A DNA stretch of 25,478 nt, taken from IMG/VR virus record IMGVR_UViG_3300034684_000105, positions 1-25,478 of that record, one strand, 5' to 3'. The number at the start of each line of letters is the position of its first letter. Within the stretch, counting starts at the first letter, position 1. Shown piece by piece: positions 6,375 to 12,470 of this stretch. Source of the DNA: a virus. The translations under genes and the position numbers were made by a program. The notes under the pieces are model-generated. The model did no database searches and had not been told where the DNA came from. It saw nothing but the letters and a program-made list of their open reading frames with translations.

Positions 6375-6601
6375 TTCTCCAACCCTTCTTTCACAACATA
6401 GAGGTCATATCCGCCGACATATTCGGATGCCAATTCCTCTAATTGCTCCCTGCATTTCCGCAGTTCGGCTTCGGCTTTTTGGGCTTCCCTGATTTGCCTT
6501 TGCAATTCCATCATTCTTGAAAGTACTGCTGCCATCTGCTCTTCAGTATGCTGTCTCTCTGCATCATAACCCTCAATTGTCGTTACTTTATACATTGTCA
6601 T
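6371..6601 (-). CDS. Coiled-coil small protein
   Basis: The 76-residue protein is mainly a coiled coil: residues about 15-58, with heptad-like QMAAVLSRMMELQRQIREAQ and the following EAELRKCREQLEELA, flanked by short beta-like ends (YKVTTIEGY and YDLYVVKEG). It starts within the end of the upstream gene (14-base overlap). Two start codons, 6599-6601 and 6593-6595, lie behind the run GGGAGGAGGTGA; the second has the better spacing from GGAGG, so the true protein may be two residues shorter. No known function. Confidence 0.6.
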   Translation of the reverse strand: MTMYKVTTIEGYDAERQHTEEQMAAVLSRMMELQRQIREAQKAEAELRKCREQLEELASEYVGGYDLYVVKEGLEK

Positions 6602-6770
6602 TCACCTCCTCCCTCTGTTGCCTCATCCATTCCATGAACTTGGGCGCTAATAGCTCAACCAGCGGCCTATAGTATTCATCCTCGTCCATCTCCTGATAGC
6701 CGATCACCTCTTCGCCTATCTTCTGCATCGTCTTTCTGTCGAGCGTTACCCTTACTGTTGCTACCTGCAT
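6588..6770 (-). CDS. Small acidic phage protein
   Basis: The 60-residue protein starts with ATG at 6768-6770 after GGGAGGGTATTTCA. The N-terminal strand (QVATVRVTLDRKTMQKIGEEV) is followed by an acidic stretch (QEMDEDEYYRPLVE) and a helix. The first segment resembles the N-terminus of small phage proteins of unknown role. It overlaps the coiled-coil gene by 14 bases, so the two are probably co-translated. Confidence 0.55.
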   Translation of the reverse strand: MQVATVRVTLDRKTMQKIGEEVIGYQEMDEDEYYRPLVELLAPKFMEWMRQQREEVNDNV

Positions 6771-10943: not shown

Positions 10944-10972
10944 TTGACTTATACGTATAGTATGCGTATAAT
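10944..10972 (+). promoter_or_regulatory. Moron promoter with tandem 11-bp operator-like repeats
   Basis: TTGACT (10944-10949), a 17-base spacer and consensus TATAAT (10967-10972) form a strong sigma-A promoter. ATACGTATAGT at 10951-10961 and ATGCGTATAAT at 10962-10972 are abutting direct repeats (9 of 11 identical), the second covering the -10 box, so a repressor site is likely. Confidence 0.8.
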
Positions 10973-11035: not shown

Positions 11036-11479
11036 ATGAGGTACGAATTAGAAGCATGGAAAAACGTAGATTTACATGAAGATGGTGACTTTTGTGTTAC
11101 CGCCATCGAACCTTTAGACAGCGATGGTGAATATGAGCCATTCGAACGTGCTAGGCTATATGGCTTCTGGACACCTCTGAATGGTACAGAAGTACCGGCC
11201 ACGGCGGGGATAGAACTCGATGAGCCTGCTATTACTCCAGATGACATATTCTCGCGCGGTTGGTACGTACTAGAAATAGCAGCCGAGACAAGCACGTTCA
11301 GAGTTGTGCGCCGCTCACTATCGGATACAGCCGCACAGCTAGCTTATAGTGATGCCCCGTTCGTGCTTGAGAAGCTTACAGAAGACGGTTGGCAGGCCAT
11401 ATGGGGACTGGACGAAATGTGTAGCACCATAGAAGCATTGCAGCAGGTACCGCGAGAAATTTTAGCAGATTTGCTGTAA
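11036..11479 (+). CDS. Acidic protein of unknown function, first moron gene
   Basis: The 147-residue protein begins with ATG at 11036 (AAGGAG eight bases upstream). It is acidic, with no membrane segment or signal peptide. Predicted strands alternate with loops in the first 100 residues (FCVTAIEPLD, ARLYGFWTPLN, GWYVLEIAAET, FRVVRRSLS), then helices (DEMCSTIEALQQV, REILADLL). I do not recognise a family. It is first in a three-gene cassette with its own promoter and terminator, running against the late genes, so it is likely expressed in the lysogen. Its stop codon touches the first stem of the hammerhead-like RNA that follows. Confidence 0.7.
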   Translation: MRYELEAWKNVDLHEDGDFCVTAIEPLDSDGEYEPFERARLYGFWTPLNGTEVPATAGIELDEPAITPDDIFSRGWYVLEIAAETSTFRVVRRSLSDTAAQLAYSDAPFVLEKLTEDGWQAIWGLDEMCSTIEALQQVPREILADLL

Positions 11480-11544
11480 CGCCCTGACGAGCCGCTGGCA
11501 ACGGCGAAACCTAGGCCCCACCGAGTTGGGGTCGACGGTCGGCG
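11480..11544 (+). ncRNA. Type I hammerhead self-cleaving ribozyme
   Basis: All core parts are present in order. Stem I 5' strand is CGCC (11480-11483). The core CUGACGA lies at 11484-11490. Stem II is GCCG/CGGC (11491-11494 with 11502-11505) and a 7-base loop. GAAA follows at 11506-11509. Stem III pairs A11509-U11539 and CC/GG (11510-11511 with 11537-11538), then after a small bulge GGCCCCA/UGGGGUC (11514-11520 with 11527-11533), closed by a 6-base loop. Cleavage is expected after C11540 in GUC; GGCG (11541-11544) closes stem I. Stem I is only 4 bp before an internal loop, which is the weak point. The ribozyme would cut the moron mRNA between its first and second genes. Confidence 0.8.
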
Positions 11545-11568
11545 AAAGCCAAAAAAATTTTTTGGAGG
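11541..11568 (+). promoter_or_regulatory. GNRA hairpin and A/T palindrome ahead of the second moron gene
   Basis: Right after the predicted cut, GGC-GAAA-GCC (11541-11550) can form a GNRA-capped hairpin. It competes with stem I, which uses GGCG. CCAAAAAAATTTTTTGG (11549-11565) is a palindrome that reaches into the GGAGG site (11564-11568), so it could mask the site unless the GNRA hairpin takes up the CC. Confidence 0.45.
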
Positions 11569-11576
11569 TAATGACA

Positions 11577-11846
11577 ATGGCTAACAAAATAAACAAAGAG
11601 CAGGCAATAGAAATGCTGGAGGCAGCGCAAGAATCGTTGCAAAACAATGGATACCCGGCAATATATCGATATGAAGGACGTATCGATATATCAAGAGGAG
11701 ATCGGTTCGGTACAGCCGAGCCGGTATACAACCACGAGGCCGAGATACTCGTCGACACAGAAACATTAAAAGTGTTGTTAAACCCATACGACTATGACAG
11801 AGAGTCGGCAGTTGAAGCCTTAATGGACATGGTGAACGAAGAATAG
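11577..11846 (+). CDS. Acidic protein of unknown function, second moron gene
   Basis: The 89-residue protein starts at the ATG at 11577, eight bases after GGAGG; the ATG at 11571 is too close to that site. It opens with an amphipathic helix (NKEQAIEMLEAAQESLQNNG), continues with strands (AIYRYEGRIDIS, AEILVDTETLKVLL) and ends with an acidic helix (AVEALMDMVNEE). It is strongly acidic. No family is recognised. Such small acidic moron proteins are often anti-defence proteins or DNA mimics, but here that is only a possibility. It ends with TAG. Confidence 0.65.
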   Translation: MANKINKEQAIEMLEAAQESLQNNGYPAIYRYEGRIDISRGDRFGTAEPVYNHEAEILVDTETLKVLLNPYDYDRESAVEALMDMVNEE

Positions 11847-11847
11847 C

Positions 11848-11919
11848 CTATAGCCCCGCCGGTGGCTTTGTTACCGGCTCATAAATTCAGCGGCACCGGC
11901 TGTGACGGGGTGCGGATAG
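11848..11919 (+). promoter_or_regulatory. Structured GC-rich leader before the EXLDI gene
   Basis: Nested pairs are visible: CTAT (11848-11851) with ATAG (11916-11919), CCCCG (11854-11858) with CGGGG (11906-11910), inside them CCGGT/ACCGG (11859-11863 with 11873-11877) and CAGC/GCTG (11888-11891 with 11899-11902). GCCGGTG (11858-11864) is also complementary to CACCGGC (11894-11900), so two folds compete. No hammerhead core or known riboswitch motif is present. It ends next to the AAGGAG site of the gene and may control its translation. Confidence 0.5.
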
Positions 11920-11930
11920 AAGGAGAAATA

Positions 11931-12446
11931 ATGAAAAAGAATATCTATGTAAAAGATGAAGACGCCTCAATATTCGAAGAGGCGGAGCGGTTAGCCGGCA
12001 GTGAAAGTTTGAGCAGTATCATCGCCACAGCCTTGAAGCAATACATAGAGGACAAAAAGGCTGAGGAAGAAATAGTTTTAGAAGTCGGCAATTGGAGACC
12101 ACGCGGCGCAAATGACACGCGGAAGGTGGCCTTCAAAGGCCGCCTGTTAGCCGACGGCACTGACTTCTGCGGCCAGACAATGAGCCGCGATGACAGGGGA
12201 ACAGACTGGGCCATATATCAGACTAGTAAAGGTAAGTTTCTGATATACTGGAAGAATTGGTCGAGGTGGGAAAATGAAAGCGATAGTGCCGACTACACTA
12301 TCGTCGATGAACTGCCGGAGCCTGACACAACGTTTATAGGCGATAGCGGCCTATATACAGAAAGCAGCGGTAACATTCCAGCCAGCATCGTTGAAGATGC
12401 TGCAAAAGCGCTAGGGCAAAACCTAGTGAAGCGGCTGGACATATGA
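11931..12446 (+). CDS. EXLDI-family protein
   Basis: The 171-residue protein starts at the ATG at 11931 behind AAGGAGAAATA; the longer frame from 11862 lies in the structured leader. The N-terminus (KKNIYVKDEDASIFEEAERL and ESLSSIIATALKQYIEDKK) resembles the start of EXLDI-family proteins and has ribbon-helix-helix character. The middle has VAFKGRLLADG and AIYQTSKGKFLIYWKNW, and the chain ends in an alanine-rich helix and LVKRLDI, the family's C-terminal signature with Lys in place of the usual Glu. The biochemical role of the family is not known to me. It is last in the moron operon; its stop overlaps the terminator stem. Confidence 0.75.
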   Translation: MKKNIYVKDEDASIFEEAERLAGSESLSSIIATALKQYIEDKKAEEEIVLEVGNWRPRGANDTRKVAFKGRLLADGTDFCGQTMSRDDRGTDWAIYQTSKGKFLIYWKNWSRWENESDSADYTIVDELPEPDTTFIGDSGLYTESSGNIPASIVEDAAKALGQNLVKRLDI

Positions 12447-12470
12447 GAGGTATAACACCTCTCTTTTTTT
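12445..12470 (+). terminator. Moron operon terminator
   Basis: GAGAGGT-ATAAC-ACCTCTC is a perfect 7-bp stem followed by seven Ts. It starts within the TGA stop of the EXLDI gene and closes the moron cassette. Confidence 0.93.

Follow-up and report, generated by a model that had tools for sequence, protein, structure and literature searches.

A pseudoknotted type I hammerhead ribozyme between two genes of a temperate phage operon, and its probable role in message cutting

Introduction

What does a hammerhead ribozyme do when it lies exactly between two genes of a phage operon? The field regards the role of bacterial and phage hammerheads as an open question (PMC6155905), and in 2011 phage hammerheads were proposed to act as processors of operon transcripts (PMC3088659). 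Clustered hammerheads that flank prophage genes were found to cleave both in vitro and in E. coli, no in vitro activity was seen for 4 of the 18 consensus hammerheads, and an mRNA 5' end of haloviruses HF1/HF2 maps within three nt of the hammerhead cut (PMC3088659). Here, the question is raised by a 65-nt element in virus record IMGVR_UViG_3300034684_000105. This record of 25,478 bases was analysed as a whole and is referred to as the window; all coordinates refer to it unless another locus is named.

The phage and its accessory operon

The window encodes a CI-like repressor, an M78 peptidase and a large serine integrase on the + strand, and tail, holin, amidase, helicase and anti-repressor proteins on the - strand. 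This combination of repressor and integrase with tail and lysis genes indicates a temperate tailed phage. Its tail proteins are closest, among named ones, to those of Bacillus and Paenibacillus phages (30-41% identity); no DNA similarity of the window to named phages or plasmids was found.

Located 3' of the integrase, between it and the holin/amidase (lysis) genes, are three + strand genes without known family, which form an operon with promoter-like and terminator-like ends:

10944-10972 (+): sigma-70-like promoter TTGACT-17-TATAAT before gene 1, 11/12 consensus matches (consensus match only)
11036-11479 (+): gene 1, 147 aa, no known family; TAA stop at 11477-11479
11562-11569 (+): ribosome-binding site of gene 2, TTGGAGGT, read from the sequence
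11577-11846 (+): gene 2, 89 aa, ATG at 11577; relative in Geobacillus virus E3 (52% over 59 aa)
11931-12446 (+): gene 3, 171 aa, no known family
12445-12463 (+): intrinsic-terminator-like hairpin followed by T7 (consensus match only)

The operon is oriented opposite to the lytic genes, and its G+C content is locally raised. Having its own promoter and terminator (both as consensus matches only) and being inserted between phage modules, it is plausibly a phage moron that would be expressed in the lysogen. No relatives of genes 1 and 3 were found in named phages, and a search of 380 genomes from one bacterial class likewise found none for genes 1 and 2; no relative of gene 1 was found outside this phage. 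None of the three genes matched defence-system models. The predicted fold of gene 1 is useless as a model (pLDDT 34); that of gene 2 has a pLDDT of 80, yet no PDB match. The only other copy of the operon found is in IMGVR_UViG_3300034683_000039 (L002-L004), a record that matches the window at 99.99% identity across the 8.4 kb compared.

In Geobacillus virus E3 (L237, 131313-137489) the gene 2 relative sits among regularly spaced small genes with gaps of about 100 nt between them. These gaps do not contain hammerheads; repeated promoters or RNA elements of another kind may be located in them. At the gene 2/gene 3 border of the window (11847-11930, +), directly 3' of the gene 2 stop, a G+C-rich three-way junction is possible, in which GCCCC/GGGGU closes two hairpins. 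Its folding z-score is only -1.0, and neither a hammerhead-like core nor an Rfam family was detected there; it could be another structured processing element.

Architecture of the hammerhead

The first-pass annotation had read the gene 1/gene 2 border as a type I hammerhead, and every part that it named is present in the sequence, in that order and at those positions on the + strand:

11480-11483 (+): stem I 5' strand CGCC, pairing with 11541-11544; stem I covaries in relatives
11484-11490 (+): catalytic core CUGACGA, read from the sequence
11491-11505 (+): stem II, GCCG (11491-11494)/CGGC (11502-11505), loop CUGGCAA
11506-11509 (+): core GAAA
11509-11539 (+): stem III hairpin with closing pair A11509-U11539; 11509-11511 pair with 11537-11539, plus an inner G+C-rich helix
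11540-11541 (+): predicted cleavage site, 3' of C11540, the C17 position in the hammerhead consensus
11541-11544 (+): stem I 3' strand GGCG
11548-11551 (+): tail GCCA, pseudoknot partner of loop II UGGC (11496-11499), from pairing in the window and a covarying family pair

The invariant core CUGANGA...GAAA...UH is complete, with UC at 11539-11540 as U16.1 and C17. The three core helices have 4, 4 and 3 bp and include A15.1-U16.1 (A11509-U11539) and G10.1-C11.1 (G11491-C11505). Stem I is open and stems II and III are closed by loops, giving the order CGCC-core-II-GAAA-III-UC-GGCG, and the tertiary contact between stems I and II is provided by the predicted pairing of loop II with the tail. Two details differ from the initial description. 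Stem III is indeed a closed hairpin but not one continuous helix, consisting of 3 bp, a short internal loop and then about 7 bp. The parts lie within 11480-11544, but pairing between loop II and the tail GCCA extends the functional unit to about 11551. The placement exactly between two genes holds: the TAA of gene 1 ends at 11479, stem I starts on the first base after it, and the ATG of gene 2 is at 11577.

The nested fold of the site is not unusually stable (z-score -0.9); thus, folding energy alone would be insufficient to find it, and it is conservation and covariation that do so. A palindrome, CCAAAAAAATTTTTTGG, at 11549-11565 extends into the gene 2 ribosome-binding site and shares its CC with the pseudoknot tail. 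Ribozyme folding could therefore be in competition with pairing to the ribosome-binding site.

Detection and relatives

A plain descriptor (core plus minimal stems) gave one match in the window and none in 400 dinucleotide shuffles, searched on both strands. The Rfam models, which had been proposed as a check, score the site below threshold: Hammerhead_3 was best with 21.3 bits against a gathering score of 48.5, and in a permissive search Hammerhead_HH9 touched the site with 14.4 bits (gathering score 52). At curated thresholds, no hammerhead was reported in the window or in 15 relative loci. We attribute this to poor coverage of the subgroup by the Rfam models.

Relatives were gathered by partial-pattern scans of IMG/VR. 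The first seed pattern constrained only stem I, a portion of the core, GAAAC and GTC; most of the 28 records retrieved were plain hammerheads whose stems II and III differed. When a wider descriptor was applied to every locus fetched, 75 distinct candidates resulted. Chromosomal matches to another pattern, GGCAA..GTCGGCGAAAGCC, were mostly chance hits in coding DNA, and only the one in Treponema (L062) is a hammerhead. A covariance model (R1) was built from 20 aligned relatives, excluding the window, and run on the whole window with filters off. The site scored 41.3 bits (E=2.7e-9), which establishes profile homology to other natural hammerheads. The next best match had E=1.6, indicating that the record holds one hammerhead of this subgroup and no run.

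Model R1 also recognises copies in cellular genomes. Matches at E<=1e-4 were found in 19 of 380 genomes from the class of a Sporomusaceae genome, a set chosen independently of the seed patterns, and in 2 of 297 from the class of a Treponema genome.

Covariation and the pseudoknot

The covariation evidence comes from the relatives in other phages, the ribozyme locus itself being known in one further, near-identical record only. In these relatives, strong compensatory changes are seen in all stems, as had been anticipated for related phages. When the 20-relative alignment was scored against the hammerhead plus pseudoknot structure, 98.6% of cells were paired and 12 of 18 pairs had changed on both sides; none of 500 shuffles was as good and no shifted register came close. 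A second alignment that included the whole-genome model matches was 99.8% paired, with covariation in all three helices.

The pseudoknot, formed by (U)GGC of loop II and GCC(A) of the tail, was absent from the first-pass list of parts. Taken alone in 23 sequences it is 100% paired, and its covariation score was equalled by none of 500 shuffles. The first two pairs are invariant and uninformative either way. The third pair (25-73 of the family alignment) is C-G in 14 sequences, U-A in 4, G-C in 4 and U-G in 1, with 8 double changes. Variants GGG/CCC and GGU/ACC occur among the whole-genome copies. The tail GCC might instead serve to form a conserved GGC-GAAA-GCC hairpin at the 5' end of the downstream product. 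This was rejected as a general explanation: the tail is kept where stem I is CCGC/GCGG (L040, L065, L139), so that pairing with loop II explains it better.

Natural core variants were seen as well. A locus at L033 3517-3583 has GUGAUCA, in which C3-G8 is swapped to G3-C8, and several among L040, L065, L018, L118 and L247 have CCGANGA (U4C); the stems and pseudoknot are retained in these variants. A second group of phage type I hammerheads (L006 5237-5302, L030, L013, L017, L026) has the loop II UGAAAAUU and lacks a matching GCC tail, and thus probably uses another stem I-II contact. Rfam misses the tested members of this group at threshold. L030 also encodes a RAGATH-36 RNA (6470-6612, -; 119.5 bits) near tRNAs and a hammerhead on the same phage contig.

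The type I assignment is thus borne out by the R1 score, by covariation in relatives and by a consistent position at gene borders in other phages (see next section). On this basis 11480-11544 (+) is confirmed as a real hammerhead, for which self-cleavage is predicted.

Placement at gene borders

Placement was counted in 66 deduplicated relatives, with random positions in the same loci as the null. An upstream stop was counted if it closed a frame of >=60 codons (30 at a contig edge) and fell between 20 nt before and 8 nt into the element. By this simple ORF test, which uses uncurated genes and includes some interrelated contigs, a stop lies against the element in 58 of the 66 relatives (null 11%), and a Shine-Dalgarno sequence (SD) with start codon follows 15-75 nt after the cut in 43 (null 13%). 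Both are found in 40 of 66, against 1.7% for the null. The median stop offset is -1 nt, and the cut-to-start distance has a median of 41 nt, compared with 36 nt in the window. In many relatives without a recognised ribosome-binding site, an ATG lies at the same distance behind an AT-rich leader (L126, L155, L157, L231); in this they seem to resemble bacteria that do not rely on a ribosome-binding site. Among 11 genome copies legible to the descriptor, including the pattern-found Treponema locus, the upstream stop is adjacent in 8, and in 4 of these 8 it is the core UGA. Relatives frequently occur as runs with one copy at each gene border: single phages carry 3 to 8 copies on one strand, and phage contigs L157, L169, L065, L118, L101 and L155 hold 4-8 in succession, roughly one for every small gene. 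In L169, an ArdA anti-restriction gene (Pfam PF07275, E=1e-22) follows one of the copies.

Possible roles of the ribozyme

We suggest, with a probability of roughly three in four, that the hammerhead at 11480-11551 splits the transcript of the accessory operon into separate messages. Of the roles considered, message cutting in the operon is the likeliest, and we infer that the mRNA cut would be that of the lysogen. The ribozyme would be transcribed inside the three-gene operon of the temperate phage, and its stems I and II would be locked side by side by the pseudoknot between loop II and the 3' tail. The folded RNA would then cleave itself co-transcriptionally 3' of C11540. The upstream product would be the gene 1 message, its 3' end formed by the structured ribozyme body with a 2',3'-cyclic phosphate. 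The downstream product would be the gene 2-3 message, with a 5'-hydroxyl end, a 36-nt leader and a strong ribosome-binding site. In this way, one transcript might provide separately stable and separately translated messages. The core, all stems, the pseudoknot, the position of the stop codon and the promoter and terminator on the same strand are supported by sequence and comparison. The runs of copies in single phages, the matches in the class of the Sporomusaceae genome, the published activity of prophage hammerheads and the ArdA neighbour shared with them also speak for this reading. Against it stand the scores below the Rfam thresholds, the ordinary stability of the nested fold, a local hairpin that competes with stem I, the interruption of stem III and the 4 published hammerheads that were inactive.

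An active hammerhead might instead be gated by translation, which we regard as unlikely. A ribosome at the gene 1 UAA (11477-11479) would cover stem I and the core, so that the RNA could fold and cut only between ribosomes, and the rate of cutting would report the translation level of gene 1. This is consistent with the stop abutting stem I here and with the median offset in relatives. Furthermore, the UGA within CUGANGA closes the open upstream frame in 29 of 68 relatives, compared with 13% for CTGA at other sites in these loci (18 of 49 with one copy per contig, p=2e-5). However, the tight spacing may arise simply from genome compactness in phages, or from selection that favours a minimal 3' trailer.

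Somewhat less probable still is that the hammerhead chiefly marks the edge of an exchangeable cassette of gene plus ribozyme. Here, the main benefit would be that a gene, when gained, comes with 3' and 5' mRNA ends of its own and causes little disturbance to its neighbours. The runs of copies, one for each small variable gene, fit a cassette, as do the locally raised G+C of the operon and the finding of no gene 1 relatives outside this phage. Such a cassette is, however, compatible with message cutting rather than opposed to it.

That the element is a decayed, inactive hammerhead, kept as a structured spacer or as the 3' end of gene 1, appears quite improbable. Stem III is interrupted, and when flanks are included the best nested fold replaces stem I with a local hairpin, GGCGAAAGCC, in an energy model that ignores the pseudoknot. 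Decay would nevertheless be expected to lose some of the core bases, A15.1-U16.1, C3-G8, G10.1-C11.1 or the 4-bp pseudoknot, all of which are intact. Finally, chance resemblance, to which the low folding z-score and the Rfam scores might point, has a negligible probability given the absence of matches in 400 shuffles and the E-value from an independent model.

Comparison with known hammerheads

The closest known elements are the type I hammerheads of bacteria and prophages described by Perreault et al. in 2011, which share the core, the open stem I, runs of copies flanking prophage genes, a stem I-II pseudoknot (reported for all three types), an ardA neighbour (in Agrobacterium and Legionella) and the proposal of transcript processing (PMC3088659). 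The subgroup described here differs in that loop II is mostly GGC, GGU or GGG paired to a tail GCC, ACC or CCC, and in that it directly adjoins the upstream stop; the term "stop codon" is absent from the main text of that paper (PMC3088659). The HHphage hammerhead of haloviruses HF1/HF2 is likewise viral and precedes a start codon by a few nt, but it has a variant core, belongs to an archaeal lytic virus and precedes the first gene of the transcript rather than occupying a border between two genes (PMC3088659).

Among the Rfam families, Hammerhead_3 (RF00008) and Hammerhead_HH9 (RF02275) align with the core and GAAA region. RF00008 is type III, whereas the element in the window is type I. HH9 is the type I group of vertebrate introns, with an internal loop in stem I. 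For one relative (L051), the best-scoring Rfam family is the hammerhead variant RAGATH-1-hammerhead (RF03152; 26.5 bits, threshold 56.3), but that model has an upstream hairpin, which is not seen in the subgroup.

Phage hammerheads, type I forms, pseudoknots and the idea of message processing are thus already published (PMC3088659, PMC6155905). Judged against the open-access literature, what provisionally appears to be new is a sharply defined subgroup, outside the reach of Rfam and tightly coupled to stop codons. Its covariance model finds copies that current Rfam models miss. Since the layout of stop, ribozyme, ribosome-binding site and start is fixed and recurs across many phages and a bacterial class, the idea of message cutting can be tested directly. 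It is a more speculative, rather doubtful extension that phages in general use this widespread pseudoknotted subgroup as stop-codon-coupled message cutters. If they do, a stop against or inside the core would link the end of translation to an RNA cut, and whole operons would become strings of single-gene messages.
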